The notes: generated by a model not told the origin, from the letters alone. A stretch of 64,000 nt of DNA from Methanolobus mangrovi (GCF_031312535.1 NZ_CP133594.1:992001-1056000); one strand, 5' to 3'. Counted from the stretch's first letter, positions 8,323 through 26,851 are shown. A program made the numbers and translations.

Positions 8323-8327
8323 TGTAC

Positions 8328-8747: not shown

Positions 8748-8902
8748 AAGAAAAGTGAGTTAGTGTTTATATCTATTTTAATTGAACTGATAATATATAA
8801 GGTTGCTTAAATGCTTTTGATAGGGCTAAAAAATTTAATGTTAATAATTTTTAGAACTACGACAAATTTATAAAATATCAAAGCGTACGCGTTTGTGAAA
8901 AT

Positions 8903-9580
8903 ATGAAAGTACCGTCCTACATCACAAAACTTGATGATCTTCTCGGGGGAGGATACATAAAACCATCAAATATCCTTATTGCAGGTTCATGCGGAACAGG
9001 CAAGACAAACATGTGTATGCAATCACTGTTCAATGCTGCAAAACAAGGAGAAAACTGTGCTTACATATCTATGCTCTCAGAATCAGAAGACAAGATAATC
9101 AGAGCTTTGTCATCCTTTTCATTTTATGATGAAAAACTGCTAACTGATAAAATAAAGATATTTCCCATCAGTTCAGATGTGGTGGCAAAAGGAGATTTTG
9201 CCATATTCGAGTATCTGAATGAGAACATCCTTAAGCATAAGATCTCACGAGTTGTCATAGATACCATAAACATCCTGGAAGATATTGAAAGTACATTTGA
9301 TGAGAGACCATTTTACACATCTGAATTAAGAGCATTTGTCCAGAACCTTTTTCAGCAATTCGATGAATGTGGCATACTCCTTATAGCGACTGCCGAGATA
9401 CCTGCTTCAAACATATATTCCAGCTTATGGTCCTATATATTTGATACAGTGATCGTACTTGATACTGAAAGGGACGAACAGAACACCAAAAGATACCTTG
9501 AGATAATTAAGGTACGGGAAAGTGATTTTACAATGGGGAAACATGAGTTCATGATTACAGACCATGGAATTGTATTTTGA
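8903..9580 (+). CDS. KaiC/RecA-like ATPase, single domain
   Basis: This 225-residue protein opens with the KaiC-type LDDLLGGGYIKPSNILIAGSCGTGKT, so the Walker A (GSCGTGKT) is intact at about residues 29-36. The Walker B strand is SRVVIDTINIL near residue 118, and late LLIATAEIP and VIVLDTERDE segments complete the RecA fold. It is single-domain, like archaellar FlaH/ArlH and many archaeal KaiC homologues. The catalytic Glu pair after Walker B is not obvious. It is divergent from the winged-helix/ParA pair and convergent with the eight-gene KaiC operon, so it probably belongs to the same signalling cluster. Confidence 0.75.
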   Translation: MKVPSYITKLDDLLGGGYIKPSNILIAGSCGTGKTNMCMQSLFNAAKQGENCAYISMLSESEDKIIRALSSFSFYDEKLLTDKIKIFPISSDVVAKGDFAIFEYLNENILKHKISRVVIDTINILEDIESTFDERPFYTSELRAFVQNLFQQFDECGILLIATAEIPASNIYSSLWSYIFDTVIVLDTERDEQNTKRYLEIIKVRESDFTMGKHEFMITDHGIVF

Positions 9581-9613: not shown

Positions 9614-9641
9614 GGATTCTTCAGATCAAAGCTGAAGATCC
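9614..9641. terminator. Hairpin at the convergent junction
   Basis: A 7-bp stem TCTTCAG/CTGAAGA (9618-9624 and 9632-9638), extended by GGA/TCC, lies between the convergent KaiC-like gene and the 193-residue gene and overlaps the latter's stop. The T-run is weak on both strands, so it is only a possible terminator. Confidence 0.35.
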
Positions 9642-10207
9642 AGAACCTTAAGTTCACGTTGACTGTGGTCTTTTATGATGTTATTGAGTTTCATGCGGAC
9701 ACTTTTTATTCCTTTTTCACTTGTAAAGTGAGAAAGAATTTCTGTAAGCTGATCTATCATGAACTGATAGTCACGTTCTGTCCCTGAATCCCTTAATTTC
9801 TGCATAGACATTTCAGCTAGTTCGGAAGTCCACTCATTATCCTTATAGTAGATCTTTTCATCGACCTCTAATTTTTTCCTTGCAACTTCATTATTGACTC
9901 TTGCAAAAATAAGTTCGACTGTATGAGGATCACCAACAAATTCATTCATGAATTGCATGATATCCATTACAACTTCAAAATAAGGAATTTCAGGATTCTC
10001 GCATTCCTTGAACATCTGTGACAATTCCAGGCGCATATTCCTTTCTGCAGGCTTAAGAATATGATTTGTAATATCATCTATTGTAGCAACACAGCTTTCA
10101 ATATCCATATCACTGGATAACTCATAGGTATTACCCGGCAATACATTGAATCTGCTGTAATATTTCAATAAATTCTTACGCAACCGTTGAACATCTAAAT
10201 TAGCCAA
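9626..10207 (-). CDS. Helical protein of unknown function, last gene of the KaiC operon
   Basis: This 193-residue, almost wholly alpha-helical, charged soluble protein has no cysteine-rich, nucleotide-binding or membrane motif. The TTG start at 10207 is chosen because GGGTGA lies 4 bases upstream. I do not recognise the family. It closes the apparent eight-gene operon that begins at 16532 and follows the GNAT gene after 28 bases; a scaffold or adaptor role is possible but unsupported. Confidence 0.6.
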   Translation of the reverse strand: MANLDVQRLRKNLLKYYSRFNVLPGNTYELSSDMDIESCVATIDDITNHILKPAERNMRLELSQMFKECENPEIPYFEVVMDIMQFMNEFVGDPHTVELIFARVNNEVARKKLEVDEKIYYKDNEWTSELAEMSMQKLRDSGTERDYQFMIDQLTEILSHFTSEKGIKSVRMKLNNIIKDHSQRELKVLDLQL

Positions 10208-10235
10208 AATATCACCCGAACCATTATATCGTCAT

Positions 10236-11030
10236 TTAAGCATCAAGTCTTTTAATAAATGAATCAAGTTCGTTCATTAGTTTGTTATCAAGCAATTCTT
10301 TTGAGTTTTGAAACAGTACCTGGAAGTCGCTGATGTCACTCTTTGATATAGATTTACCCATATTATCCCGGAACTTTAGCGACTCATAGCTACCAATGAG
10401 CTCAGGCAGCACCATACGCGGATAGTTTACAGCCATGGTCTTTAGCATGGCCCTGGCTCTTGGATATGGAAGTATCAGATAATCCTTATATCTTGAAGAA
10501 AGGCCATTGTTACCCGGATTCAAACACTTGAAGTTTAACTTATCTTTGAAAAAACGGGCAGCTCCCTGATTATCAGGCAGTGTTATAACGTTGGTTTCCA
10601 ATTGATTGACAGATATTGCAAATAATAAACGCCCTATACCGACATGTCTGTGTGCCGGATGTACCTCTATACTCCTGAGCAGATGAACTGAATAATTAAC
10701 AATATTCGTTTTGCCTTTGTATGTCTTCTCAGTTTCATCAGATATCTTTTCAAATCGTGCAAAACCCAGTAGTTGGTCTGAACCCTTAACAGCAACAAAA
10801 AGTGAATGTCCCGAACTTATTGAGCTTTTCAGCAGGAAATCATAAGGCATCCCAAACTTATTATGGAAATAATTAAAACCCACGTTATTGGATTGTCCAA
10901 TATCTATAGTGAGCTGGTCCACCGATATGCCTGTTTCCAATACGCCATACCCGATATCTCCGGCCATGTGCAATACATTTAAACCTTCAATTGCCATTTT
11001 ATCATCTAATATCTCAAGCATTTGCATGAT
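10236..11030 (-). CDS. GNAT-family N-acetyltransferase
   Basis: The open frame extends to a TTG at 11078, but the likely start is an ATG at 11030 (or 11024), overlapping the end of the coiled-coil gene by 17 (or 11) bases; the product has about 264 residues. The GNAT core is in the first 160 residues: strand SLFVAVKGSDQLLGFARFE, then the acetyl-CoA loop RSIEVHPAHRHVGIGRLLF (R/Q-x-x-G-x-G/A, motif A), and the C-terminal GAARFFKDKLNFKCL (motif B). The remaining 100 residues are helical and unassigned. The substrate is unknown. It is the acetyltransferase of the KaiC operon. Confidence 0.72.
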   Translation of the reverse strand: MMQMLEILDDKMAIEGLNVLHMAGDIGYGVLETGISVDQLTIDIGQSNNVGFNYFHNKFGMPYDFLLKSSISSGHSLFVAVKGSDQLLGFARFEKISDETEKTYKGKTNIVNYSVHLLRSIEVHPAHRHVGIGRLLFAISVNQLETNVITLPDNQGAARFFKDKLNFKCLNPGNNGLSSRYKDYLILPYPRARAMLKTMAVNYPRMVLPELIGSYESLKFRDNMGKSISKSDISDFQVLFQNSKELLDNKLMNELDSFIKRLDA

Positions 11031-12735
11031 CTGCAACAGAATAGAAAGTATACCTTCCTTTTTTGGTGGAATGAACAAGCTGTTCCTGTTCCAGATATGA
11101 CATTACAAGAGCCAGTTTTTCAAAATCTATAGAAAATCCATTTTCCTGAATTTGCTTTTCAAGCTGCTTCAGAGTTGCGGAACCAAGTACCGACAGTTGG
11201 CCGGTTATGACATCTTCTATTGGCATTTCAGAAAGTTTTAGGGGCCGTGGCTCCTCCATACCATACAAATCAGGAGTTTCTTCACGGACTTCCGATATTT
11301 CATCCTCTGTTACCTGTAATTTCTGTGAATTTAACATAGTTTCCTGAACTTGCTGTTGTATCGAGGAAAACATATTCTCCACACTGGCTTTGAAAGATTC
11401 CATCTCACAGGAAATAGCTATTATATCTTCATGGCTTGCTTTTGAAGCAACCATTTCCTCAATCCTTGACAGATCAGGAAGTTCAAAACTCTCAGATATT
11501 TGATTTTCTGTGATGGGTGAATTCCGGAACTCGGAAAGAATCGTGCCCAATTTGTTTATTGCCTTTGTATGTAGATTGACAGCCTTTGCTATGCTCTCCA
11601 TCTGTTCCTTTATCTCAATGAGATCCTTGGAATTAGAGGCTGTTTCTTCAAGCTGATTGTTTTGTAACTCAGCCATAAAACTGACATTCTCCGTGATATT
11701 AGCCAATTCATCCCTGAACAGGCCAATGTCGGAATTGATCTTATCAATATACCCCTCGTGAGATACTACTTTTTCGATAGTGTATTCCCGACTTCCAGTT
11801 TCAACAAAAGAACGGAAATCCTGGGAATTATAATTAGGAACATACTGGAAAAGCATCTTGAATAATTCTATATACGTCCCATGTATCTGTTTTATGGAAA
11901 CTATCTTGGAAGATATTGCTTCAGAAAGTCCCCGTATTATGAAAGATTCGTTTTCAAATCTGAAAAAATCAATACCTGCACTGAACTGACGTACACTGTC
12001 CCTGGCATCCTCCACCATTTCGGCAGCTTCCCTATCGCCGTATACCCCAAGCATGGCACTGTAAATATCATTCAGAGTCTTTGCATAAGTTATCTCAAGA
12101 ACATCAGGAGGTACTTTTGTAGCATCAAGAGATTCGGCATTAACAGAATCTTCAGCCTGCACAACCCTTTTAAGTCTCTTAGAGAACTGGTCAAAATCTT
12201 TTTTGAGCAGTTTTAACTCGGTCTCATCAGCCCTTGTTTGAAGATCGTTCTCTATAGAAGATAATAAATTTCCATTTGACTCAAGAAGTTCATCCATCCT
12301 TTCTTGAAGGTCCGTGAACTTTTTCTCAAATCCATATAACCGGGATTCCATTTCAGCATTGAGCGTTTCGGCTTCTTCCAGTCTGGATAACATACCCTCA
12401 TGAACTGCATTGAACGAAGTTTCATATGATATATCAGAAGAATTTGCCGGGTTATTAGCTTCATGAGAATCAGAAGCCTTTGGGCTATCAGAGACCACCA
12501 CCAGAGATGTTACCATCCCGGACTTCGAATCATCTTCATACCCAGAATTATCCTTTGTGATAGAACCATCCGCCTTATCATCCTTATTGACCATCACTTG
12601 ATCTGCATCTGCATCATAATCCGTTTCAGGAAGTGTGATTGCATGATTATCCATCTCAGTTTCCGTTGTCCATTCATCTTGAAAACCCGGATTTTTTGTT
12701 TCACAGGCATTTAAGACACATATTTCATCATCCAT
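11014..12735 (-). CDS. Long coiled-coil protein with C-terminal winged helix
   Basis: This 573-residue protein begins with an acidic, low-complexity region (about 1-115). Coiled coil follows (about 120-205, EEAETLNAEMESRLYGFEKKFTD), then a folded helical centre (about 210-330) and more heptad-like coiled coil (about 340-480). The end is a winged-helix-like domain (LSVLGSATLKQLEKQIQENGFSIDFEKLALVMSYLEQEQLV...GRYTFY). GGTGATC precedes the ATG. Its size and coiled coils recall scaffolds of chemosensory or archaellar motor-switch proteins (FlaC/D/E), but I do not see the FlaD/E domain itself. It lies 14 bases after the Roadblock-like gene in the KaiC operon. Confidence 0.65.
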   Translation of the reverse strand: MDDEICVLNACETKNPGFQDEWTTETEMDNHAITLPETDYDADADQVMVNKDDKADGSITKDNSGYEDDSKSGMVTSLVVVSDSPKASDSHEANNPANSSDISYETSFNAVHEGMLSRLEEAETLNAEMESRLYGFEKKFTDLQERMDELLESNGNLLSSIENDLQTRADETELKLLKKDFDQFSKRLKRVVQAEDSVNAESLDATKVPPDVLEITYAKTLNDIYSAMLGVYGDREAAEMVEDARDSVRQFSAGIDFFRFENESFIIRGLSEAISSKIVSIKQIHGTYIELFKMLFQYVPNYNSQDFRSFVETGSREYTIEKVVSHEGYIDKINSDIGLFRDELANITENVSFMAELQNNQLEETASNSKDLIEIKEQMESIAKAVNLHTKAINKLGTILSEFRNSPITENQISESFELPDLSRIEEMVASKASHEDIIAISCEMESFKASVENMFSSIQQQVQETMLNSQKLQVTEDEISEVREETPDLYGMEEPRPLKLSEMPIEDVITGQLSVLGSATLKQLEKQIQENGFSIDFEKLALVMSYLEQEQLVHSTKKGRYTFYSVADHANA

Positions 12736-12749
12736 AGCAGATCACCATA

Positions 12750-13520
12750 TCATACAAAAGACTCAAGTTTGTGTTTTATATCCGGTATCCATTCAGCCTC
12801 ACAGATATCAGCCACATAATCACCGTGCAGAGGACGTATCTGGTCCCTAATTATCATTTCAACAAGCAAAGGCCACAGGTCTTCTGTCATCCATTTTGGA
12901 GATGAGGCTATCTCATTGAAAGCCATTGCAAGCACCTGTTCAACTTCCCCCCTACCCATGACACCGGTGATCTTCACCTTTATATCTGCAAGGATCTCCA
13001 TGTTCTTTTTATACTCAGAAGACTGGGTGTACATTTCATTGAATACTATCTTGGACAATACACGTAACTCATCAGCCACTTCTTCAGGATAGGTAGCCAA
13101 CTGCTCTGCAGTCATTGGACGCTGCTCAAAGATATGCTGCATCACATGTTTAGCGATCTCGATCTTACCCATATTTTCTGAAAGATCCGCCCTTCCTGTG
13201 AAAAGGGAGATCAAAAGCGCTCCGCGACCAACTGCCGAGAAAATAACAGTACCAAAGTCATATTCAATGACCGATTGTCTGAGCCCCATTGCAAGCTGCT
13301 GGCTCACGTGTAACAGATTATGGCTGATCAGGTTGGTAAGCTCAAATATCTTCGGGCCGATACTATCCGGTATGTAGGAGGCGTATATCTTTCCGTCTGC
13401 ACCTGCAAATAAAAGTACATCCACATCACTGGATTGGTGTGTCCTTTTCAGCTGTGCGACCAGAGCAAACTTCAAAAGGGAAACATCCTCAAGGTCATCT
13501 TTTGTTTTTTTAACTGACAC
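12750..13520 (-). CDS. Roadblock/LC7-like domain protein
   Basis: This 256-residue protein starts with GTG at 13520, set by GAGGTGG 7 bases upstream. Residues about 15-120 show the Roadblock/LC7 pattern: strand DVDVLLFAGADGKIYASYIP, a long helix (KIFELTNLISHNLLHVSQQL), then VIEYDFGTVIFSAVGRGALLISLF, strands ending in a conserved small-residue turn. The rest is helical with a possible second wHTH-like segment. Roadblock proteins in prokaryotes serve small GTPases and polarity control; in archaea they also occur with KaiC-like signalling modules. It lies 19 bases behind the KaiC gene. The assignment rests on pattern only. Confidence 0.55.
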   Translation of the reverse strand: MSVKKTKDDLEDVSLLKFALVAQLKRTHQSSDVDVLLFAGADGKIYASYIPDSIGPKIFELTNLISHNLLHVSQQLAMGLRQSVIEYDFGTVIFSAVGRGALLISLFTGRADLSENMGKIEIAKHVMQHIFEQRPMTAEQLATYPEEVADELRVLSKIVFNEMYTQSSEYKKNMEILADIKVKITGVMGRGEVEQVLAMAFNEIASSPKWMTEDLWPLLVEMIIRDQIRPLHGDYVADICEAEWIPDIKHKLESFV

Positions 13521-13539
13521 GTCAATCCACCTCAGGTAA

Positions 13540-14625
13540 TCATTGAATTAATTCTTCCAGTTCACTCAGACTATCAATCTCTATAACTCCCCCATCATCT
13601 GAATCTGAAAAGAGAGTTTCATCCTGCATAAATTTTGTATCTTCGATCTGCAGAGTTCCACCGGATAGATCACCGATATCCAGCGGGACTTCAGGAGAGC
13701 TTGCTTCTTTTTCTTTTCGTCTTGCAAGGTCTTCCCGGGTCACTGCATCATTCAGGCCCTGGGATTCAAAGAATATCTGGAGTGTTTCCTTTGGAGAGAA
13801 CGGATATGACCAGTTTTCCTTAACGTAAACGAGACGTTCAAGCATCCTCTCACCTGCTCCGAGATCTGCAGCAGTCCTTATAGCCTTGTCAAAGACATCA
13901 TCATACTTGCGCATATCTTCAGCAGATACAAGTGGAGTGGTTCTTACAACAACCCCGACGCCACGAACAAATATGTAGGGATATACTTCTTCCCCATGCC
14001 TTGTTGCACGCATTTTGATAATTTCAAGAGCTCTGTTAAAAGCGCCCCCAATAGGCCTGTATGTCAGGTGTACAGCACCATCGGACATGTAAATTGGGAT
14101 CAGCACATCCTCACCGACAGTCTCTCCCGGAGAAGAGTGTTCTTCTGTTGTGATAAGGACAGGGCCGAGCTGCTTTAAAGTGTAGAACAGCTTCGTGATA
14201 ATCTCACGCTGCTCCTGTTTGTCCTGTATAGCCCATATAAGAGGAGTTAAAGGATCAATGATAACACGGGTCTTTACAGAATAGTTCCTGTTAGCTTCTA
14301 CAAGTGCAGGGAGTTGCTCATCTACAAGTTTTACGAAGTCCTTTCCTTTTGAATGGAAGAAAAAAAGCTCCTTTTCGTAGTACTTGTCGAGATTGAAACC
14401 CAGCATTTTCGCTTCACGCATGATCTGTTCGGGAGGTTCTTCCATACTGATGTAGAGACCATTCTCACCATGTTCAAGACCGTAATTCAGATATTGCATT
14501 GCAAATGTAGACTTTCCGGTACCACTTGAACCAACAACCAGAAAAGTCGTGTTGTCACGTACGCCACCTTCGATCACTCTGTCAAGACCTGCGATCCCGG
14601 TTGGTATTCTTTTCTCAGCACTCAT
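13540..14625 (-). CDS. KaiC-domain ATPase with acidic tail
   Basis: This 361-residue RecA-superfamily ATPase has the classical KaiC start RIPTGIAGLDRVIEGGV and an intact Walker A, GSSGTGKST (about residues 32-40). The EE pair after strand 2 follows (LYISMEEPPEQ), then Walker B RVIIDPLTPL near residue 125, LITTEEHSS, and the late RALEIIKMRATRHG arginine/lysine finger segment. After residue about 300 comes a flexible acidic tail (SDSDDGGVIEID) that could be a docking peptide. A strong GGAGG lies 6 bases before the ATG, which overlaps the previous gene's stop (ATGA). KaiC-like ATPases have been proposed as signal-transduction hubs in archaea; here it is the central enzyme of the operon. Confidence 0.88.
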   Translation of the reverse strand: MSAEKRIPTGIAGLDRVIEGGVRDNTTFLVVGSSGTGKSTFAMQYLNYGLEHGENGLYISMEEPPEQIMREAKMLGFNLDKYYEKELFFFHSKGKDFVKLVDEQLPALVEANRNYSVKTRVIIDPLTPLIWAIQDKQEQREIITKLFYTLKQLGPVLITTEEHSSPGETVGEDVLIPIYMSDGAVHLTYRPIGGAFNRALEIIKMRATRHGEEVYPYIFVRGVGVVVRTTPLVSAEDMRKYDDVFDKAIRTAADLGAGERMLERLVYVKENWSYPFSPKETLQIFFESQGLNDAVTREDLARRKEKEASSPEVPLDIGDLSGGTLQIEDTKFMQDETLFSDSDDGGVIEIDSLSELEELIQ

Positions 14626-14987
14626 TTATATTCCTCCGGGAATCCTGATTCATTAAAATTATTCAGGTCCTGTAAAGCTGGATCAGAATCCGGCATTAGT
14701 GAACCATTCTCAATTGAAAGTATCAGGGATTCATTACTGTCAAATGGAAAGCTTTTTTCTATGTAGATGGACTCGATGGCATGCCCCATTACCAGCATAC
14801 GGCCAGTAATGTCAACCCATCCAGTATCGTTTTTCATTACAACATTTATCAAGAGAACATTGTTGTTCTTTTGATCGATCCTTACACATTCACCCCTGTA
14901 ATGTGACTTATTCGTAATCACCCTTACAAATTCACCCATGAAATCTCCCAGATGATTATTAGCTGAAACTGATCTGTAACCTGACAT
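14622..14987 (-). CDS. Sm-like (Lsm-type) beta-barrel protein
   Basis: In this 121-residue protein, residues about 16-75 match the Sm fold by eye: GEFVRVITNKSHYRGECVRID resembles the Sm1 strand set (G..V.V......y.G....D), NNVLLINVV the third strand, and GRMLVMGHAIESIYIE the Sm2 motif. The rest is an acidic tail. Archaeal Sm proteins form RNA-binding heptamers and are normally stand-alone, so one translationally fused to a KaiC gene is unusual. AGGT lies 8 bases before the ATG. The assignment needs structural comparison; a generic SH3-like barrel is the alternative. Confidence 0.5.
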   Translation of the reverse strand: MSGYRSVSANNHLGDFMGEFVRVITNKSHYRGECVRIDQKNNNVLLINVVMKNDTGWVDITGRMLVMGHAIESIYIEKSFPFDSNESLILSIENGSLMPDSDPALQDLNNFNESGFPEEYK

Positions 14988-14995
14988 TCATATAC

Positions 14996-15910
14996 CTACT
15001 GATTTTTTTTCATTTTTGCAAGAAGTTCGGCAAAACTATCTGTCTTTTTAGCTTCTTCCTGCAGTTGTTTTGTTTCCTCGGAGACAACTGGTTCAGGAGT
15101 TACAGGCTTCTCTGATTGCTGTTCCTGGATTGTTTTGGTCATTGCACCAAATGCACCACCAAAAGTACTGTGAGTATCAGCAATAGATGAGAGTTTTTCT
15201 TTGAGCTTCCATGGTGGATCGAATATTTTTTCCTCGACCTTCATGCTGCTTGCAAATTGCATGTAAGCATTGCCTATTTCTGACAAACGACCATTTTCCA
15301 GTAACTTGTACACTGTCAGTGCCCTTACCCTGTCCCTCAATTCATTATCATCAACAGGTGGTCTGACACCTGAGAGTATCATCTTGTCATATTCATCCAG
15401 CATTACCTGGTATGCAGATATAGGCTGGAGATCTACTTTGAACTTACATACCTCATTGCCATTTTTGATACACTCGATCTCTTCAACTGAACATTCAAGT
15501 TCAAGCTCCTCCCTGAAGAACCTGTGGAGAGCATCAGTTGTAGCTACACACACTTTCTGATTGTTGAGTGCCGGGTAGAAATTACAAACAGGATTATTGG
15601 GAACTGCATAAATGTAATGCATTGGCGCATACGATATCAACTGCATATTACCAAGACCAATTTCCCGGAAGAAATCCATGTGGAAACGATAAAGCGAAGT
15701 GGACCTTATCAGCTCAATGGTACTGGCCTTGAGGAATTCCCTCGTCCCACTCCACGGGACCTTGGCTTTGGGGAATCTATCACTGATATTTTGCTGTAAT
15801 TTGAGCATTGCTCCAAAAGCACCCATTGACTGCCCAAAACTGCTATTGGACATAGGAGGAGCATCTCCACCAGGAGCACTCATGAAAGGAGGAAGACCTG
15901 GATCAGTCAA
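14996..15910 (-). CDS. V4R-like sensory domain protein
   Basis: This 304-residue protein begins at a TTG (15910), fixed by the near-perfect AGGAGGTG at 15917-15924. Residues 1-45 are glycine/proline/methionine-rich and probably disordered. Residues about 55-165 resemble the V4R (4-vinyl reductase-like) small-molecule-binding domain. Clear features are the cysteine- and histidine-containing segment NPVCNFYPALN, a helix with HRFFREELELE, and the terminal IECIKNGNEVCKFKV. The C-terminal third is helical and acidic. V4R domains occur in archaeal signalling proteins, often with chemotaxis or HTH partners. As second gene of the operon it may be the sensor for the KaiC module (inference). Confidence 0.55.
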   Translation of the reverse strand: MTDPGLPPFMSAPGGDAPPMSNSSFGQSMGAFGAMLKLQQNISDRFPKAKVPWSGTREFLKASTIELIRSTSLYRFHMDFFREIGLGNMQLISYAPMHYIYAVPNNPVCNFYPALNNQKVCVATTDALHRFFREELELECSVEEIECIKNGNEVCKFKVDLQPISAYQVMLDEYDKMILSGVRPPVDDNELRDRVRALTVYKLLENGRLSEIGNAYMQFASSMKVEEKIFDPPWKLKEKLSSIADTHSTFGGAFGAMTKTIQEQQSEKPVTPEPVVSEETKQLQEEAKKTDSFAELLAKMKKNQ

Positions 15911-15944
15911 TCAAAACACCTCCTTTTTGGTGATTAAGTTCATT

Positions 15945-16532
15945 TCACATCATCTCCCTTATTTGCTTTAGACCATGTTCAGTAAGTGTTCCCGAAGTGT
16001 CGCAGAAATTTTGCTCCCTCAGGTTCTTGAAACTGGCAGCCAGAGTATCGTTGTCAACACCGATGAAAAAAACAAGCTTCTGTAAGTCATTTACACCAGT
16101 TGAAAGCATGTAAAGGAGCTTTTTATCAACATCAGAAAGTGATTGTTTTTTCGGAGGAGTGCCACACATTGGCTGAAGATAGGTCTTTAGCGTATTGATC
16201 ACCGCTTCGTTACCTGCCAATAATGCAGTAGCTGAAGCCGTAGCTCCTTCTACAACAGATGAAGGCTGAAGATAATCGATCATGAGTACATGTGAAGTAC
16301 CAATGGTTCTCTGTGCCTTCATACGGATAGGATCAGTAACCTCCCTGCCCACCATCGTAATGCTTTTTAGAGGTATTGTTATCCATCCACCACCCTCAGA
16401 GAACCACAGGTTCAGGTTGGTAAGATAGAGAACACCTTTCTCCCAATTCTCGGAATAAAGGGAATTACCCATCATCACTGCTTTGTAAATGTAAGTTAGA
16501 TCAACTTTTGCGATACCCTGCTCTTGAGCCAT
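15945..16532 (-). CDS. CheF-like protein (PH-like domain plus winged helix)
   Basis: This 195-residue protein has two parts that match the archaeal CheF layout. The N-terminal beta-rich PH-like domain (about 20-120) contains KGVLYLTNLNLWFSEGGGWITIPLKSI, the 'ligand tag' strand pattern. The C-terminal winged helix (about 135-195) contains DKKLLYMLSTGVNDLQKLVFFIGVDNDTL and TLTEHGLKQI. Halobacterial CheF links CheY to the FlaC/D/E complex of the archaellum motor. Its presence as first gene of the KaiC operon therefore points to motility control. The protein is shorter than typical CheF, so a divergent relative is likely. Confidence 0.55.
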   Translation of the reverse strand: MAQEQGIAKVDLTYIYKAVMMGNSLYSENWEKGVLYLTNLNLWFSEGGGWITIPLKSITMVGREVTDPIRMKAQRTIGTSHVLMIDYLQPSSVVEGATASATALLAGNEAVINTLKTYLQPMCGTPPKKQSLSDVDKKLLYMLSTGVNDLQKLVFFIGVDNDTLAASFKNLREQNFCDTSGTLTEHGLKQIREMM

Positions 16533-16769
16533 ATGGAAACCCCATATATAAGAATTATATATATTATAATATAATTATAACTAATATTGTATTTGCCATA
16601 TTAATACTCTTCTGTTGAAAATCAAAATAAGTAACTTCTGCTTTTATGAGAACTTAACTTTTTAAGATATACTATAAAAACAAATAATAAAGTAAGTGAC
16701 TAAAACAAACTAGATCAAAACAAAATAGATTATGAACTAAAGTTACTGACAAATAAATTAGGAATCGTC
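16533..16769. promoter_or_regulatory. Promoter region of the KaiC operon
   Basis: This 237-bp A+T-rich gap separates the 3' end of the deacetylase/GNAT unit from the CheF-like gene, both read leftwards. The segment at about 16545-16575 is almost pure A/T with TATATATTATAATATA-like stretches and is the best candidate for the TATA element of the minus-strand operon. I see no operator-like dyad or terminator hairpin. Confidence 0.4.
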
Positions 16770-17648
16770 TTATTTAGACAAGTTCTTAAGTGGAAGGAAA
16801 TACCGTTCAACATTGCAACTGGCACATATAAAAGCAGTACCTTTCCTTTTGCCAGTGACCTGATATTTATACACAAGATAATGCCCGCATTTGCAAGGAG
16901 ACATCATTTTTTGTTCGCCTACAAATTTACCATCAAATACGATAGGATCCTGAGAGTCGGCAACATTTTCATCTTCAGATGGAGTTAACGGAGCAGTCTG
17001 ACTATCTGCAACAATAACAGTTTCAAGGACAGCACAATCATTTGCTTCTGCCGTATTGACATCATTTTTCGCAGTCTCAAGACATATTTCTTTAGGAAAT
17101 ATCTTAGCTTTACAGGACATTATATTACTTTCAAATACTGAAATATCCTCAAAGGATAATAATTCCTTTTTACCTTCATCAAGTATCAGATAACCCGGAT
17201 AATCACCAAGATTTACCGGTGAACTTGAGGAAGGTTCTACAAAATTAAGAGATTCGAAGAACAACTTTGCATTCTTATTTACAGGCTTTGTAATAACGTG
17301 ACCAAGTAGTACATTGGCTATAAGGAAAAACATATTTTTCCCCACGCCCCTCCTTGCAAGCTGAGGAGATATCTCAATACCTCGCAACACATACACAGGC
17401 CTTCCATCAGTTGAAGGTGAACTCCATTTTTCATTCATAGCCCATCCAACAACAGTATTGCCTGATATTGCCAGCACCAATGCTACAGTAGGTCTTTTAA
17501 GCCAGCTATTAAAATTGGAGAAATAATCCGCCATACCAAGATATTTTCTGAAGTAACTGAATTCACCTATCTTCAACTTGTCAAGCTCAAAAGCATGCTC
17601 AAGTTTACAGAAAGATATACCATCATCAGTTCTTGCAAGTTCAAACAT
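16770..17648 (-). CDS. GNAT acetyltransferase with zinc-ribbon-like tail
   Basis: This 292-residue protein has a GNAT domain over residues about 1-165. VALVLAISGNTVVGWAMNE is the central strand, and RGIEISPQLARRGVGKNMFF is the acetyl-CoA binding loop (RRGVGK). After it comes AKLFFESLNFVEP. An acidic linker (about 190-245) leads to a four-cysteine metal site (CKCGH...CASC, about 255-282). GNAT fused to a zinc ribbon suggests docking to a protein or nucleic-acid target. It lies 28 bases behind the two deacetylase-family genes, so opposing modification enzymes share a unit. Confidence 0.72.
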   Translation of the reverse strand: MFELARTDDGISFCKLEHAFELDKLKIGEFSYFRKYLGMADYFSNFNSWLKRPTVALVLAISGNTVVGWAMNEKWSSPSTDGRPVYVLRGIEISPQLARRGVGKNMFFLIANVLLGHVITKPVNKNAKLFFESLNFVEPSSSSPVNLGDYPGYLILDEGKKELLSFEDISVFESNIMSCKAKIFPKEICLETAKNDVNTAEANDCAVLETVIVADSQTAPLTPSEDENVADSQDPIVFDGKFVGEQKMMSPCKCGHYLVYKYQVTGKRKGTAFICASCNVERYFLPLKNLSK

Positions 17649-17676
17649 TTAATCAACTACCTTTTTAAGTATGGGC

Positions 17677-18738
17677 CTATAAACCCCAGTATGGTTCCAA
17701 TCTCATTTTCAGAAGGGATAAATTGTTGTTAAAATCTTTTCTGGTTTTAGCATGTCTTGAAGCCAGCAGGTCTACAAGGTTTACATCATCCTTAATGCTA
17801 CTTTCCCCGACCAATGCACGCAGAACAACTGATGTGAGCAGACCAAGATCATTATGATAACCGCCTTCCAGCAAAGCTACAATATTCCATTTAAGTGCTA
17901 ATTTAAATATAATTTGGTAGTACCCATCAATTGTAAGATTCAGTTTTGTCAGAGCTTCTTTATGATAAGCATCAAAACCACATTCAAGTATGACCATCTG
18001 CGGATCGAATTTTGCCAGTACCTTTTCCACCACTTCATCATATAATACGTTATATTCCGGGTTACTGGCCTCAGGAGGCATTTCCATATTTATACAATAA
18101 CCAAGTGCAGGCCTTACACCAATATCCCGAATAAAACCCTTATATGGATAAAGAGTTGATTGGTCCTGATGAATTGATATGCAGAGAACACTGGGATCTG
18201 CCTCAAATACCGCATGCGTCCCATCGGAAGCATGTGCATCAATATTTATGATTGCAATTCGCTCAAGCCCATGCACTTCCTGGAGATACCTGGCCAATAC
18301 ACCGGAATTGTTAAAAACACAAAATCCACTGGACGTATCAGGACCTGCATGATGGCCAGGCGGACGTATCAGGGCAAAAGAATGTTTACATTTACCCGTA
18401 ACAACAAGATCGCCTGCATTCAGAACACATCCTGTAGCCTCCAAAAGTACATCAAATGAAGAAGGGCATACATATACATCCTTACTACTTAAACGAGAAT
18501 CTTTAGTACACGACTTCACAAACTCAACATATTCTTTTGTATGAACTCGTAAGATATCATTGACAGAAGCAGCTTTCGAATCATACATACGACACCGAAC
18601 ACCATCAAGTAAATCTGTAGACTTCAGGTACTCCTGTATCTGTTCTAACCGTGAAGGATTTTCAGGACAGGGATAACCATTAAGCAAAGAGTCATGCAAA
18701 GAATGATTTTCATTAAGGGTAAGTCCAACATTAACCAT
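17677..18738 (-). CDS. Histone deacetylase-family amidohydrolase
   Basis: This 353-residue enzyme is of the arginase/deacetylase fold. The signatures are RPPGHHAGPDTSSGFC (tandem catalytic His, near residue 126), zinc ligands in NIDAHASDGTHAVF (Asp and His, near residue 170) and the third ligand in ECGFDAYHKE (near residue 260), plus EGGYH. The usual DxHxGDGT carries Ser in place of Gly. Family members remove acetyl groups from lysines, polyamines or small amides. It overlaps the upstream deacetylase gene by one base (TGATG). It probably acts in the cytoplasm, as no signal peptide is present. Confidence 0.85.
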   Translation of the reverse strand: MVNVGLTLNENHSLHDSLLNGYPCPENPSRLEQIQEYLKSTDLLDGVRCRMYDSKAASVNDILRVHTKEYVEFVKSCTKDSRLSSKDVYVCPSSFDVLLEATGCVLNAGDLVVTGKCKHSFALIRPPGHHAGPDTSSGFCVFNNSGVLARYLQEVHGLERIAIINIDAHASDGTHAVFEADPSVLCISIHQDQSTLYPYKGFIRDIGVRPALGYCINMEMPPEASNPEYNVLYDEVVEKVLAKFDPQMVILECGFDAYHKEALTKLNLTIDGYYQIIFKLALKWNIVALLEGGYHNDLGLLTSVVLRALVGESSIKDDVNLVDLLASRHAKTRKDFNNNLSLLKMRLEPYWGL

Positions 18739-20702
18739 CAGGACACCTGCAAAGATAATATTGGATTATGCTTTTTCGATTCCTCTATCTTCTTCTGCGT
18801 ATCTGCAAATATCTGTTTTTTCTGATTCAATTTATAACTTGATATTTGCAGGGAGTCACTAACCGGATTAGGTTTTTCATGAAGGGAACTAAGCACACTA
18901 TGGCATAACTGACCATTAAAATCGTGATACCCACCTTCCATCAGGAAAACCATTGGCCCATGGAATACTGAACGCATCTTTGATGTCATCTGATGATAAC
19001 CTTCAGAGTCCAGAGTAAGGCCTATATTTTTTTCCTTATAGTATGCATCAAAACCACAACTGACTATTATATAATCAGGAGCAAAACGGTTTACCATTGG
19101 AATGACTACTTCATCAAATGCCAGCATGTACTCATCATTGCCGGCACCCTCTGGCATTTCAACATTCATGGTATACCCTTTGCCTGCATTTTCCCCTATT
19201 TGCGTACTGAAACCTTTACGAGGGTAGAAACCATGCGGATCCCGATGAAGTGATAAGAACATAACAGTGGGATCGTCGTAAAAGATTTCCATTGTGCCGT
19301 CACCGGCATGTGCATCCCAGTCAAGTATCAGTACTTTTCCTATATTCCTGTTACTTTGCAAATGCCTTGCAAGAATAGCTGCATTATTGAAAAGGCAAAA
19401 TCCCCCATACTTCTGGGAACTTGCATGATGACCAGGCGGACGTGCCATGACAAAAGCATGTGAGAATTTCTTATCCACCAACAGATCACCTGCCGTTATC
19501 GCAGCGCCTGCTGCCGCCTTGGCAATTTCATAAGAACTTGGTGTCATGTAAGTACTGTCACCTAAAAAACCGCCCCCTGCACTTGCGTAAGATCGGACAA
19601 ATGAAATATATGATTCATCATGGACCCTTAATAGATCAGTTTCTTCAGCCATTCCAAATTCATCTATTAGTGTACAAGTACCGTCACTGAAAACTTTATT
19701 CTTTTCCAGATACCACATCGCTTTAATAAGACGCTCTGGTTTTTCATGAGTATTAATAGATAGAGAAGCAGCATCATGATGTATATGGTCCTTGCTGTAA
19801 AGAAAAGCAATGTTTACAGGAGACTCAGAAGTGCTACTTTCTTTTACCCCCAATACTTTCATTTCTTTAATCCCGGGATTAATAGAAGATAATTGATCAT
19901 CTGGAACCTTTTGCAATTTAAGAGGCTTTTCAATCTTCTTAACTTCTTTCTTCATTAAAGATTCATTCAGAGAGATTTTTTGAGCTGAAGTCAATGTTCC
20001 GGAGCTATTTGATTTAGATAATGCGGCCTTTGATTCTGCTTTGGCAGATATCGGCACGTTTTTTACTACAGTGACAGGTTCTACTTCTATAGAAGAATCA
20101 GAAGCGTTAACATTCTCATGACCAGACTCTGATTCTTTTGAAGGAATATTCTTTTTTAAAGCCGACAGATCAACAGATAAACTATCTTTTTTATCGACAG
20201 ATTCTGAAGACGATAAAACAGGAGCCTTTGGAGTCTTTTTCAGAATATCAGACACAATTTCAGAATATCGAAAATCTCCTTCATGTTCTACAGTATTCCC
20301 AATTTCATCAATCTCAATTTCGACCGATTGATATACAACATCGTCAAAAACTCCAGATAATGTGTCCGGAACGATAATATTAACATCAAGATTTAATGGT
20401 TCATCATTCTGAGGAAAATAATCAGGCTCTTTTTCCGTTTCAACAAACTCTGCATCATTAATACCTGAATCTTCACCTTTTGAATCAGAAAATGAATTTG
20501 AGTCTTGTTTTTCAATTATCCCGGATTGAACTAATTCCAGAAGTGAATCCTTTTCAAATTGATCAGCATTAGAGTTTGCACTCTGATCCCCATCAAGATA
20601 AGAGGAAAATGCATCATTCAATTTTTTCATAATATCCGGAGATACTTTTTTAGAAGACTCACCTGCTTCGTTATTATCTGATGACAACGGCCCCATCTCC
20701 AA
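18738..20702 (-). CDS. Histone deacetylase-family enzyme with long disordered N-terminal region
   Basis: This 654-residue protein has two unlike halves. Residues 1 to about 285 are acidic, Ser/Asn-rich and lack hydrophobic core pattern, so probably disordered. Residues about 290-620 are a complete deacetylase domain: RPPGHHASSQKYGGFC, ILDWDAHAGDGTMEIF, VSCGFDAYYKE and MEGGYHD supply the tandem His and the zinc ligands. Unlike the next gene, the canonical DAHAGDGT is kept. The start is uncertain: TTG at 20702 or ATG at 20696, right behind the previous stop. A 290-residue disordered extension is unusual for prokaryotic members and may be a tether or target-binding arm. Confidence 0.82.
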   Translation of the reverse strand: MEMGPLSSDNNEAGESSKKVSPDIMKKLNDAFSSYLDGDQSANSNADQFEKDSLLELVQSGIIEKQDSNSFSDSKGEDSGINDAEFVETEKEPDYFPQNDEPLNLDVNIIVPDTLSGVFDDVVYQSVEIEIDEIGNTVEHEGDFRYSEIVSDILKKTPKAPVLSSSESVDKKDSLSVDLSALKKNIPSKESESGHENVNASDSSIEVEPVTVVKNVPISAKAESKAALSKSNSSGTLTSAQKISLNESLMKKEVKKIEKPLKLQKVPDDQLSSINPGIKEMKVLGVKESSTSESPVNIAFLYSKDHIHHDAASLSINTHEKPERLIKAMWYLEKNKVFSDGTCTLIDEFGMAEETDLLRVHDESYISFVRSYASAGGGFLGDSTYMTPSSYEIAKAAAGAAITAGDLLVDKKFSHAFVMARPPGHHASSQKYGGFCLFNNAAILARHLQSNRNIGKVLILDWDAHAGDGTMEIFYDDPTVMFLSLHRDPHGFYPRKGFSTQIGENAGKGYTMNVEMPEGAGNDEYMLAFDEVVIPMVNRFAPDYIIVSCGFDAYYKEKNIGLTLDSEGYHQMTSKMRSVFHGPMVFLMEGGYHDFNGQLCHSVLSSLHEKPNPVSDSLQISSYKLNQKKQIFADTQKKIEESKKHNPILSLQVS

Positions 20703-20705
20703 CTA

Positions 20706-21656
20706 TCACTGAACCTGCAGCCATACAGGATCGAGTACACCGACATACTTTGTGCCCACATAATCAAATATCACGGTTGGTTCTTCAATAGATGCCCAGC
20801 CGGCAAGTTTAGGTTTTACAACCCATGTCCTTTTTACCGTTTCACCTGGCGCAATGGTGTCAAAGAAGAGATTGACTTTTTGTGCTTCAAGCGAATTCGG
20901 AAATTTAGCTTTCATTGAAAAGTTATGATAAGGCTCCTGAGTAAAGTTCTTGACCCATACATCCACACTTGTGGCATTACCAACTGTAATCTGTTGTGCA
21001 GGAACAAACCTGACGTATTGTGCAATTGCTTCTTTCTGGATAGGAACTGCACCCGAAGTGTCTATTGTCCTACTATTTTCTTTTTTCTTAGCTTTGTCTT
21101 TTTTATCCAGATAAAGACCCGCACCAAGCATAGCAAACGCAAATACAGATATGACAGGGGCGTTATCAGTAATTACATCAACAGATGTTTTTTCAACCTC
21201 AATATTCACAATCTCAGCATTTTCAAATGTCAAGGGTTCATTAAAAGCAACCCTTGTTATGATCCAGCCTAATTCACTGTTCTGCAATCTGAAATAAACA
21301 GGAACTATAGTAGTACTTTTTGCATTTCCAGAAAGGTCAAGGGTTGCTACAGAACATTCAACATTTACTATAGCAAGATTATCGACTATTTCCCTGGAAA
21401 CAATATTAGTTTCCATTATACATCCTGCTTTCATGCCTTTGTTATTGAATATCATTGTGATGCTTGCAGGCGCAAGAAAATCCTTACCAGTATATAGAGA
21501 ATAAGCTATACCAGCTTCGTCTTCGTTGACAGCGTTCAAAAAATCCAAAACCTTTGATTCGACTGATTCTTCGGGGGAGTTGGCAACACAACCACTGTTA
21601 AATACAGCAGCTGCAAGAACAAGAAAACAAATGATATAGGATGAACTGTTTTTCAT
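20706..21656 (-). CDS. Predicted membrane-anchored surface lipoprotein
   Basis: From the ATG at 21656 (GGTG just upstream) the protein has 316 residues. It opens with a lipoprotein-type signal (hydrophobic segment ending FNSGC). An NTF2-like or beta-sandwich part (about 25-145) follows, then one internal hydrophobic helix (APVISVFAFAMLGAGLYL) with a basic flank (DKKDKAKKK). The last part is an Ig-like/CARDB-like beta domain (about 215-316, VTVGNATSVDVWVKNF...APGETVKRTWVVKP). This suggests an extracytoplasmic protein with a second membrane pass. It lies between the EF-hand protein gene and the deacetylase genes. Confidence 0.6.
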   Translation of the reverse strand: MKNSSSYIICFLVLAAAVFNSGCVANSPEESVESKVLDFLNAVNEDEAGIAYSLYTGKDFLAPASITMIFNNKGMKAGCIMETNIVSREIVDNLAIVNVECSVATLDLSGNAKSTTIVPVYFRLQNSELGWIITRVAFNEPLTFENAEIVNIEVEKTSVDVITDNAPVISVFAFAMLGAGLYLDKKDKAKKKENSRTIDTSGAVPIQKEAIAQYVRFVPAQQITVGNATSVDVWVKNFTQEPYHNFSMKAKFPNSLEAQKVNLFFDTIAPGETVKRTWVVKPKLAGWASIEEPTVIFDYVGTKYVGVLDPVWLQVQ

Positions 21657-21694
21657 GTGAGCACCGTAAATAGGTAGATGATTAGAGAACATTT

Positions 21695-22435
21695 TTATTG
21701 AGATTTCTTTATTTTATTCATTCTAATTATATATAATGCTATTGATGCAAGTATGATCTCAATTATAATCAAAAGAGGCAGAAAGAAACTGCGTTCATAA
21801 ATGGACTTTTCCTCTATAGTGACATATGCTGCATATTCGAATGCAGGCGTGTCATTTATCATAAAGGAACGTATGCCACTGACACCTTCAAGCACTACAC
21901 GCCCATCCTGCACTGACTGTGATGCATTATCGAGTCCATCATATGAGACCAACTCCATATCAGCAGGGAGAACGAATCGCATGTTGTCGATAAGAGGATG
22001 ACCTAGTACCCATACACTATGCTTTCCTTCGGAAATTGTTGAATTTGCCCCATATTGAACTATTGTGGTCACATTCAATTGAGAAATATCAACCATACCA
22101 TCTGCACCTTCAAACTGAAGATCAGCAGAATCTATATTCAATGGAAGTGAGCCATTATCTATTAGAACATATTCCAGGAATTGTGCTTTGCGATCCGATA
22201 GATAGCTTTCCTTGAATACTTCGACCTCTGAAGCATTCACATTTCCACTATTGTCTGCATCCAGATCCTCTCTGAAACCCAGCGCATCATCAAGTGTATA
22301 TGTTTCATGTATCACAAATGTGATAGATTCCTCATGCATTTCGATGTTATTAGTAAACGAAACATCTGCTGAAGCTTTTAAAGCAAAGCAACAGAAAAAT
22401 AAAATAAACAATAAAATGATAGTTCTTTTGCTCAT
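21695..22435 (-). CDS. Secreted membrane-anchored protein with EF-hand-like loop
   Basis: The protein has 246 residues from the ATG at 22435 (GAGGGATGAT upstream). It has a signal peptide (KRTIILLFILFFCCFALKASA), an ectodomain with a calcium-binding type loop DLDADNSGNVNASEVEVF (dockerin/EF-hand pattern, about residues 55-72), and a C-terminal transmembrane helix (FFLPLLIIIEIILASIALYII) with basic tail. Most of the mass is therefore outside the cell. It follows the second archaellin by 33 bases with no terminator between, so it belongs to the archaellin unit. A role as filament-associated or anchoring protein is inference. Confidence 0.6.
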   Translation of the reverse strand: MSKRTIILLFILFFCCFALKASADVSFTNNIEMHEESITFVIHETYTLDDALGFREDLDADNSGNVNASEVEVFKESYLSDRKAQFLEYVLIDNGSLPLNIDSADLQFEGADGMVDISQLNVTTIVQYGANSTISEGKHSVWVLGHPLIDNMRFVLPADMELVSYDGLDNASQSVQDGRVVLEGVSGIRSFMINDTPAFEYAAYVTIEEKSIYERSFFLPLLIIIEIILASIALYIIRMNKIKKSQ

Positions 22436-22468
22436 ATCATCCCTCATAAAATATAAGAAAAGTCCGAC

Positions 22469-23257
22469 TCATGGATAGAGCTGGACTGTTTCCCTAGTAC
22501 CATACGACGACGGAGCCAAAAAGGTTGCCATTGTTGTTGCACCGAATTCGGGCGTAAGTACTATAGTTACAGTAGTACGTGGCTCGATGTCAAGGGTGGA
22601 ATCCTTCTGACCGCCAGCAGTATTTACCTCACCTATTGTAGTAAATGAAAGATCACTGCCCGAGACTGCAGATACATAAATAATCGCAATATCCCCGGTA
22701 TTCATAATCGGGCTGTTCTGAGAGAACGATGTATCCTCATCCCTGATCTTCTGTACCGTGAAGAAATATTTTGCATTGTCACCAGGTGTTGCCTGCGTAT
22801 CCTTAAGCAAAGCCCCCAGATTAGCAATTGCAGCGGTGGCATCAGACGAAAAATTGCTCATACTGTAATCGTAGATCCGGTCATTGTTTGCATAAAGAAG
22901 ATCATTGGTGTTAGTGCCATCTGTAACGGAAACTATCAACTGGTTAAGATCAACAGGAGAACTCCCAACATTCAAGCCGACCCGTATCTTTAATAAAGAG
23001 ATGGCATCTGCCATGTCAGTAGCATTATTCTTTGCACGAATACCTTCTATATGTTTAACTACCAGATTAGAGGAAACTTCCTGAGTTGCCTGCTTACCAG
23101 TCGATTGTGCCTGCTGCTGAAGAATACCAGATGTCTGTATAATCACAGAAGCAGCCACCGTAGCAATGAGCACCATAGCAATGAAAATAATAAGGGTACC
23201 AATACCCACCTGAGCCCGAGCATCCTTAAACATTCCGGTCTTTTTATTAGCCTTCAT
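22469..23257 (-). CDS. Archaellin (second of pair 1)
   Basis: This 262-residue archaellin precursor begins at ATG 23257 (GGAG about 10 bases upstream). Its class III signal peptide ends [13 protein letters not shown], followed by the conserved hydrophobic assembly helix (IAMVLIATVAASVIIQTSG) and the [19 protein letters not shown] stretch seen in all four archaellins here. Cleavage after Ala by the FlaK/PibD peptidase is expected from the family. The protein ends TVQLYP. It is separated from the first archaellin by a hairpin and runs into the surface-protein genes downstream. Confidence 0.9.
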   Translation of the reverse strand: MKANKKTGMFKDARAQVGIGTLIIFIAMVLIATVAASVIIQTSGILQQQAQSTGKQATQEVSSNLVVKHIEGIRAKNNATDMADAISLLKIRVGLNVGSSPVDLNQLIVSVTDGTNTNDLLYANNDRIYDYSMSNFSSDATAAIANLGALLKDTQATPGDNAKYFFTVQKIRDEDTSFSQNSPIMNTGDIAIIYVSAVSGSDLSFTTIGEVNTAGGQKDSTLDIEPRTTVTIVLTPEFGATTMATFLAPSSYGTRETVQLYP

Positions 23258-23284
23258 GAAAAACATCTCCGGGAAAAAAGAATG

Positions 23285-23305
23285 GTGTGTAGAACTTCTA
23301 CACAC
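23285..23305 (-). promoter_or_regulatory. Intercistronic hairpin between archaellins of pair 1
   Basis: GTGTGTAGAA (23285-23294) and TTCTACACAC (23296-23305) form a near-perfect palindrome with one central base, between the stop of the first archaellin and the start of the second. No T-run follows on the transcribed strand, so a role in RNA processing, stability or partial termination fits better than full termination. Confidence 0.55.
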
Positions 23306-23314
23306 AAAGTTATC

Positions 23315-24073
23315 TTATGGATACAACTGTACGTTTTCCTTAACTCCGTATGAAGATGGAGTTACAAATTCAGCAACTGTTGCAGCACCAGATTCCGGAG
23401 TCAGCACAATGTTGACCATTGTCCTTGGAACAAGAGTCATGTCAGATGTTACAGGTGTTGTACTTGCTCCAAGAGTAGTTAAGGCAGCTCCAGCATCCGA
23501 TGTTGTTGAAATATATACAACTATAAGGTCACCGGTGTTCATTACAGGATTACCCTGTGAGAAGGACTGGTCTTCATCACGTATCCTATCTACAGTATAA
23601 AACTGAGCAGGATTACCAGCAGTAGTAAGCAATGCATCCAAATTCGTTGCAGCATCTGCAGTGGTCGCAAACCCAGACATGACAGCATCATATGATTTAT
23701 CATTACCCGCATATACCAGATTATGCGCAATTGTACCATCTGTGATAGAGATGACTACCTGATTCACGTCTACTGGAGAACTGCCCACATTAAGAGCTAC
23801 CTGTAGTTTGAGCAAGTCAATGGTTTCTGAAAGATTTGTACCAGTTTTTGCACGTATGCCTTCGATGTTCTTGACCATCAGGTTGGATGATACTTCCTGG
23901 GTTGACTGCTTACCGGTTGACTGCGCTTTCTGTTGCAGTATACCGGATGTCTGAATAAGTACTGCTGCAGCAACTGCGGCAACGAGTACCATTGCTATGA
24001 AGATTATAAGAGTACCAATACCCACCTGAGCTTTGGTATTTTGTTTCATATTTAATGATTTGTTTGCTTTCAT
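23315..24073 (-). CDS. Archaellin (first of pair 1)
   Basis: This 252-residue archaellin precursor opens [23 protein letters not shown], with the class III cleavage site and assembly helix ([20 protein letters not shown]). The outer domain carries [14 protein letters not shown] and the C terminus reads ENVQLYP. GAGGAGG precedes the ATG. It heads the minus-strand unit and is nearly identical over its first 70 residues to the first archaellin of pair 2 at 26883-27656, so the two arose by recent duplication or are held alike by conversion. Confidence 0.92.
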   Translation of the reverse strand: MKANKSLNMKQNTKAQVGIGTLIIFIAMVLVAAVAAAVLIQTSGILQQKAQSTGKQSTQEVSSNLMVKNIEGIRAKTGTNLSETIDLLKLQVALNVGSSPVDVNQVVISITDGTIAHNLVYAGNDKSYDAVMSGFATTADAATNLDALLTTAGNPAQFYTVDRIRDEDQSFSQGNPVMNTGDLIVVYISTTSDAGAALTTLGASTTPVTSDMTLVPRTMVNIVLTPESGAATVAEFVTPSSYGVKENVQLYP

Positions 24074-26038: not shown

Positions 26039-26057
26039 TAAGGTGAAAATCACCTTA
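26039..26057 (-). terminator. Terminator of archaellin pair 2
   Basis: A perfect 8-bp stem (TAAGGTGA, 26039-26046; TCACCTTA, 26050-26057) with a 3-base loop overlaps the archaellin stop. On the minus strand it is followed by a T-rich stretch (complement of the A-rich 26018-26038). No such element follows pair 1. Confidence 0.65.
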
Positions 26058-26834: not shown

Positions 26835-26851
26835 ATTACACCCTCCTTAAA

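Follow-up and report, generated by a model that had tools for sequence, protein, structure and literature searches.

A putative KaiC-centered acylation signaling module next to archaellin genes of Methanolobus mangrovi

To our knowledge, little has been established about what the KaiC proteins and the HDACs of archaea do. The KaiC-like ATPases of archaea were reportedly described as signaling hubs by Makarova, Galperin, and Koonin in 2017. KaiC arCOGs and families have been found near T4P and archaellum loci (PMC4858521). The locus described here, from a 64,000-nucleotide stretch of the M. mangrovi genome (the window), is like such hubs in that a KaiC-family ATPase shares a predicted operon with proteins carrying sensor and adaptor domains, close to archaellum or T4P genes, but it is unlike them in that its gene set adds HDACs, GNATs, a CheF-derived adaptor, and V4R and Roadblock proteins and recurs in two phyla. 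No published description of this KaiC-HDAC-GNAT-CheF-V4R set was found, the neighborhood tables of the 2017 hub study lying outside the comparison. A literature search returned no HDAC-KaiC-archaellin system, and novelty is provisional.

Other described systems share parts of this set. The chemotaxis adaptor CheF binds CheY-P through its C-terminal domain and probably contacts the ArlCDE ring through a pair of PH-like domains (PMC9126983). Like this adaptor (PMC9126983, PMC2666748), the CheF-like protein of the locus is predicted to contain a PH-like domain and a CheY-P-binding-type C-terminal domain, and in Methanosarcinaceae it is found in an archaellum and chemotaxis context; unlike it, the protein has one PH domain rather than two and a shortened dimer strand, is encoded in a KaiC module, and is also present where both che and archaellin genes are absent. 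The KaiC-like protein CirA affects motility in Haloferax (PMC13286277), so that a KaiC-like protein is tied to motility there as well, but an HDAC/GNAT/CheF/V4R module is not described in that work on CirA and CsmR. A further likeness is with AcuC-AcuB of Bacillus, in which an HDAC-family deacylase is under the control of an adaptor and a nucleotide signal (PMC13039410); that system, however, is without KaiC or motility, and its adaptor is unrelated. The locus shares with MglB/Roadblock regulators a Roadblock fold, which covers the N-terminal half of a 256-aa protein, but this protein has an extra helical half, and an MglA-type GTPase is absent among the module genes.

Layout of the locus and domains of its products

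The host genome is a 2.62-Mb single contig from a Methanosarcinaceae archaeon. Every open reading frame that a preliminary description of this DNA had named was recovered at the same position and on the same strand (Table 1). HMM searches against Pfam and NCBIfam, which were used for the domain calls, bore out most of the earlier gene assignments, including two archaellins (PF01917), two Hist_deacetyl proteins, two GNATs, and one KaiC ATPase; the Roadblock assignment was upheld by structure, and the Sm-like match is weak. The PF02830 match of the V4R protein falls just under the cut-off.

Table 1. Features of the archaellin block, the KaiC module, and the adjoining genes
Feature	Coordinates	Strand	Evidence or remark
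Archaellin 1 (arl1), archaellin block	23315..24073	-	PF01917, own-genome search
Candidate attenuator at the arl1/arl2 junction, hairpin followed by T-run	23285..23305	-	9-bp hairpin
Archaellin 2 (arl2)	22469..23257	-	PF01917 E 3e-28
A3 surface protein, N-terminal signal and C-terminal TM	21695..22447	-	sequence inspection
A4 lipobox protein, internal TM	20706..21692	-	sequence inspection
HDAC-L, first gene of KaiC module	18738..20702	-	PF00850 E 6e-85
HDAC-s, second deacylase-family protein	17677..18738	-	PF00850 E 1e-77
GNAT with C-terminal Cys4 zinc-ribbon	16770..17648	-	
A+T-rich gap, 237 nt, TATA-like tracts	16533..16769	-	by inspection
Truncated CheF, one PH-like domain and CheF C-terminal domain	15945..16532	-	hhalign, HMM
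V4R-domain protein, conserved cysteines	14996..15910	-	PF02830 E 8e-7, alignment
Small Sm-like protein, weak assignment	14622..14987	-	E 0.01
Single-domain KaiC ATPase, ∼130-aa acidic C-terminal tail	13540..14625	-	PF06745 E 4e-47
Roadblock/LC7 domain and helical C-terminal half, module marker	12750..13520	-	
Coiled-coil protein, C-terminal winged-helix-like region	11014..12735	-	weak HTH match
Second GNAT, paralogue of first	10236..11078	-	homologues suggest shorter start near 10997
Helical protein, module end	9626..10207	-	kept in most, not all arrays
Second single-domain KaiC-like ATPase, divergent	8903..9580	+	
HTH regulator	8328-8747	-	
MinD/ParA ATPase	7597-8331	-	

HDAC-L consists of a disordered N terminus of ∼290 aa and a class-IIb-like deacylase domain, and its best match among solved structures (PDB) is HDAC6 (E 3e-94). 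The features of class II-like Zn-dependent HDACs are present, namely a PF00850 match far over the cut-off, the His pair, the Asp/His/Asp zinc ligands, and the Tyr. The zinc-ligand motifs previously noticed in both HDACs held up on alignment, the zinc ligands and the catalytic His and Tyr being invariant in 20 HDAC homologues; as judged from these residues, both HDAC active sites are intact. The Cys4 ribbon of the first GNAT is kept in other genera and is absent from the homologues in Thermoplasmatota modules, and Thermoplasmatota GNATs show a degenerate CoA-loop motif. KaiC (361 aa) has one KaiC domain, not the tandem domains of the circadian KaiC clock; its GSSGTGKST P-loop and catalytic EE are invariant in 14 sequences, and neither KaiA nor KaiB was found among the array genes in the Pfam and NCBIfam searches. 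The Roadblock-like protein has no Pfam match. Its AlphaFold (AF2) model (pLDDT 85.8) gave MglB/Roadblock as the best Foldseek match (E 5e-6, TM(target) 0.7), and this reading also has sequence support.

The preliminary description had drawn two leftward units, unit A from the archaellins to the first GNAT and unit B from the CheF-like gene to the helical protein. Intergenic gaps are -1 to 28 nt in unit A and -65 to 34 nt in unit B. The 237-nt gap between them probably holds a promoter of unit B's own. Based on this A+T-rich gap and on an opposite-strand gene that separates the units in G059/L086, the two units are probably transcribed separately. It had also been stated that unit A has no visible terminator, which is inexact given the hairpin and T-run between arl1 and arl2. 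A hairpin is found as well at the matching junction of a second archaellin pair in the window, and hairpins are present at most of the Methanolobus archaellin junctions inspected. Together, these hairpins suggest attenuated read-through, by which downstream genes may be expressed below the level of archaellin 1. The arl2 reading frame opens at 23305, and the ATG at 23257 matches the archaellin N terminus. A sigma-70 promoter scan of the locus gave results at the level of shuffled sequence; the sigma-70 model is irrelevant to archaea.

The second archaellin pair (26055-27656) has its own junction hairpin (∼26845-26880). Beside each pair a divergent multi-TM protein of 268 aa is encoded (24241-25402 and 27818-28624), and the first of these loci additionally encodes a 120-aa wHTH-like protein. 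The 268-aa/wHTH pair is also an archaellin neighbor in genomes of Methanococcoides and of genus g10; both proteins, which have no Pfam match, are candidate archaellin regulators. A canonical archaellum operon, with archaellins next to the ArlH/I/J motor genes, was ruled out for the window. The motor genes (ArlD/E-like, G, F, H, I, and J, assigned by order, size, and homology) form an ArlD/E-G-F-H-I-J cluster near 2.577 Mb on the same chromosome. This cluster has no archaellin, and the window pairs are therefore likely to be the filament genes. A second ArlD/E-domain protein (903 aa, 2612191-2614902) is encoded apart from the motor cluster, and relatives have one too.

Conservation of the array and its division into two blocks

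The Roadblock-like protein was used as the module marker in a survey of 112 Methanosarcinaceae genomes. It was present in 37 of them, representing 5 of 14 genera (Methanolobus, Methanomethylovorans, Methanosalsum, Methanohalobium, and the MAG lineage SMBSF72). In all searches with this marker, one match, in L139, was discarded because its reading frame was not intact at the positions examined. A close HDAC-L ortholog was found in all 37 of these genomes and in 1 of the 75 others, the one being 70% complete. The order of the array (archaellin, archaellin, A3, A4, HDAC-L, (HDAC-s), GNAT, CheF-like, V4R, Sm-like, KaiC, Roadblock, coiled coil, (GNAT), (helical)) recurs in Methanolobus, Methanomethylovorans, Methanohalobium, Methanosalsum G073, and the SMBSF72 lineage. 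Such conservation of order and strand over five genera far exceeds what chance would produce. Co-occurrence of the archaellin, KaiC, and deacetylase genes in relatives, which had been proposed as a check on the preliminary description, was thus observed.

HDAC-s is missing from the Methanosalsum and Methanohalobium array loci. In Methanosalsum natronophilum, the array is divided between two contigs, one with the archaellins, A3/A4, and the genes for the CheF-like and Sm-like proteins, the other with HDAC-L through the helical protein. In Methanosalsum G073, the HDAC-L frame is broken (one TAA and a frame change, L070:6412-7904), and the gene is possibly decaying. Fisher tests against the Roadblock marker gave p values of 7e-29 for HDAC-L, 2e-25 for T209 (see below), and 8e-12 for ArlD/E, which overstate independence, as the genomes are related and the counts come from one family. 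Stronger evidence is provided by the conservation of order, by a deletion in Methanolobus G054 that is accompanied by loss of an unlinked partner, and by recurrence in another phylum.

Comparison of these loci divides the locus, by gene content, into two evolutionary blocks. An archaellin block comprises arl1, arl2, and the two surface proteins A3 and A4, and a KaiC module comprises ∼11 genes (two HDACs, GNAT, truncated CheF, V4R, Sm-like, KaiC, Roadblock, coiled-coil/wHTH, GNAT, and helical protein). The boundary at A4/HDAC-L was set by comparison with Methanococcoides, Methanolobus G054, and Thermoplasmatota. Methanococcoides loci have archaellins, A4, the 7TM/wHTH pair, and flanking trp genes at the corresponding site, and the module is absent. 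In the G054 genome, which is 99% complete, the archaellins, A3, and A4 are followed by a fragment of the neighboring HTH gene and then by the far-side genes; one deletion of roughly 12 kb extends from HDAC-L to the second KaiC, and MinD has been lost as well. A3 stays with the archaellins where the module has moved or been lost, and A4 is archaellin-linked in Methanococcoides too. From these results, we conclude that the genes and the conserved cluster of the two-unit layout stand, but that the split as drawn does not. Nor is a single archaellin-led unit supported: in evolutionary terms the HDAC and GNAT genes are part of the KaiC module, and G054 has retained the archaellin block after losing that module.

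The genes for MinD/ParA, the HTH protein, and the second KaiC-like ATPase (7597-9580) flank the module in Methanolobus and Methanomethylovorans, the KaiC-like gene adjoining it in both genera, and they are gone or decayed along with the module in G054. In Haloferax, homologues of MinD influence the placement of motility proteins.

Outside Methanosarcinaceae, the Roadblock protein was not found in a 393-genome sample of the same phylum. Relatives with 34-38% identity were found in a scan of named genomes and in a Thermoplasmatota sample (14 of 390 genomes). The typical Thermoplasmatota order is HDAC, TumE-like gene, HTH gene, CheF-like, V4R, KaiC, Roadblock, coiled coil, T209, T205, and GNAT, and the KaiC of these modules is 55-60% identical to the window KaiC. 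HDAC is adjacent in about half of the loci, and GNAT in nearly all of those with an untruncated contig. Archaellin and CheW were absent from the six Thermoplasmatota module genomes tested; several Thermoplasmatota genomes are MAGs whose completeness is not established, and gene absence is a caution rather than proof.

Since HDAC and GNAT are kept in archaellin-free Thermoplasmatota modules, they appear to travel with KaiC and not with archaellin, and these comparative loci bear out the earlier grouping of acyl-transfer and deacylase-family genes with KaiC. With modules that have neither archaellin nor CheW, the archaellum cannot be the ancestral output, and archaellin is not the ancestral acylation target. 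The finding that HDAC is non-adjacent in several Thermoplasmatota modules, together with the loss of HDAC-s in Methanosalsum and Methanohalobium, indicates that some modules either do without deacylation or obtain it from another source. An AglB/STT3-like gene (∼2000 aa) lies beside the module on the opposite strand in several Thermoplasmatota (L174, L180, L181, L183, and L138).

The chemotaxis operon and the truncated CheF

The Thermoplasmatota module also includes T209 and T205, two paralogues that carry conserved cysteines and match no Pfam family. In Methanosarcinaceae they were found in 36 genomes, 35 of which are module genomes (35/37 versus 1/75); a further match in G002 is weak. In 9 of 9 Methanosarcinaceae genomes inspected, the chemotaxis operon (CheY, CheB, CheA, CheC, CheR, CheC, CheD, CheC, and so on) ends with this gene pair, which in the host genome lies at about 107126-108368. 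Identity of T209/T205 is ∼80% among Methanosarcinaceae genera, and T209 is 51% identical to its Thermoplasmatota counterpart. In both Methanosalsum genomes inspected, the module runs directly into the che operon, with a set of archaellin and ArlD/E genes ahead of it in G073. G054, which has lost the module, is missing T209 as well, and the module and T209 sites are unlinked in the host genome. These data show that the module is linked to the che operon.

The module CheF (195 aa) aligned by hhalign to residues 106-258 of canonical CheF, which contain the second PH-like domain and the C-terminal domain (E 2.8e-11). It is without the first PH domain, its model having one PH-like domain, and ∼5 residues of the CheF dimer strand are missing. 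Its C-terminal CheY-binding-type domain was matched by HMM to that of CheF in 7ovp (E 7.7e-4) and 7od9 (E 0.05); the PF04283 (CheF-arch) score of 20.6 bits (E 4e-4) is below the cut-off of 25. Foldseek with the model gave marginal PH matches (E 1e-3), and the CheF assignment therefore rests on HMM comparison.

Full-length CheF (PF04283, 47 bits or more) was found in 14 family genomes, none of which has the module. Methanosarcina and M. burtonii possess it; in G017, which we take to be M. burtonii, canonical CheF is encoded with CheY, CheB, and CheA, and the archaellum cluster next to them is a different one. The module protein is the sole PF04283 match in most module genomes, and ArlD/E is present in all 37 (the family-wide search for the archaellum motor used PF04659 in place of ArlH). 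From these comparisons, we infer that the truncated CheF may be the CheY-archaellum adaptor of module organisms. Replacement of canonical CheF by the truncated form is suggestive and not strict, since some archaellated module-free genomes are also without CheF. Based on the T209/T205-che linkage, the CheF distribution, and the conserved array, the previously suggested wiring to the archaellum is likely, and the motility link is lineage-specific but well supported.

Possible roles of the module

The reading that we favor, tentatively, is that these genes encode a putative KaiC-centered protein-acylation signaling module that joins chemotaxis and the archaellum. In this proposal, of which we infer the substrates, ligands, partners, and signal direction, a single-domain KaiC ATPase would cycle at the center of a conserved cytoplasmic signaling module. 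The V4R protein and the cysteine proteins T209 and T205 would most likely sense a ligand or a redox or metal state, and the Roadblock and coiled-coil proteins would form a scaffold for KaiC. GNAT would add acyl groups to lysines of a module partner common to both enzymes, and HDAC would take them off, through which acetyl-CoA status or time would be read jointly with the ligand. The output in Methanosarcinaceae would pass through the truncated CheF, with its tail binding CheY-P and its PH domain binding the ArlCDE ring; standing in for the missing canonical CheF, it would bias archaellum rotation or assembly, and wHTH parts would perhaps pass output to archaellin expression. It is unlikely, in our estimate, that the module is a portable archaeal one in which acylation and deacylation of lysines determine the state of KaiC, so forming a switch or timer, and which was ported onto Methanosarcinaceae chemotaxis with a shortened CheF replacing the usual CheY-archaellum adaptor.

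Given its presence in unrelated archaea without a swimming filament, the module looks like a previously undescribed switch that these methanogens attached to motility. It provides a fixed cross-phylum partner set for archaeal KaiC and HDAC, with a clear motility link in some species, and the natural deletion strain and the archaellin-free species could be used as controls. If the favored reading is true, archaeal taxis would receive direct input from reversible acylation as well as from phosphorylation, and some archaea would manage without full-length CheF.

The locus could instead encode mainly a transcription switch, which we consider possible though somewhat unlikely. KaiC and the wHTH proteins (the coiled-coil C terminus, the CheF-type tail, and the neighboring HTH) would then control archaellin or che expression, GNAT and HDAC would act on histone- or Alba-like chromatin or on wHTH proteins, and motility would be a member of the regulon rather than a direct partner. 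The wHTH-like ends of two module proteins, the co-regulation of motility genes by Haloferax CirA with CsmR (PMC13286277), and an equally good fit to genomes without archaella are consistent with such a switch; however, the CheF-type wHTH is in CheF a binding site for the CheY protein and not a DNA binder (PMC9126983), and the position of T209/T205 in the che operon and the absence of canonical CheF from module genomes point to a motor interface. We regard it as improbable that the substrate of HDAC and GNAT is a small molecule (an acetylated polyamine or acyl-CoA product) or a surface sugar, the module reporting a metabolite without any protein acylation switch. Polyamine deacetylases do belong to the HDAC family (HDAC10 and APAH are among the PDB matches), and the AglB/STT3-like neighbor in several Thermoplasmatota would fit a sugar, but the closest solved structure by sequence, HDAC6, is a protein deacetylase, and a conserved acidic gatekeeper residue was not seen in the stretch after GFD in the aligned HDAC sequences. 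Sugar N-deacetylases are not known to have the HDAC fold.

The preliminary description had pointed to the archaellins or surface filament proteins themselves as the objects of acylation and deacylation by the linked enzymes, and the tight operon arl1-arl2-A3-A4-HDAC-L-HDAC-s-GNAT agrees with this. Such a substrate is nevertheless very improbable: Thermoplasmatota modules keep HDAC and GNAT in archaellin-free genomes, the archaellin block persists without the module in G054 and Methanococcoides, and archaellins are exported, whereas HDAC-L, HDAC-s, and the GNAT enzymes have no signal peptide by inspection. Equally little weight is given to the suggestion that surface and signaling genes are accidental neighbors, for which the separate contig of M. 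natronophilum with archaellins, A3, A4, CheF, and Sm-like genes might be cited. For the module, this was rejected based on the order and strand kept in five genera, the joint loss in G054, the recurrence across phyla, and the linkage of T209/T205 to che.

Some Methanolobus genomes encode, in addition to the truncated CheF, a protein of ∼400 aa with a CheF-like domain. This protein resembles two PH and CheF-tail units in tandem and is followed by a KaiC-like gene (L198:5545-7462), the two forming a second CheF-KaiC pairing.
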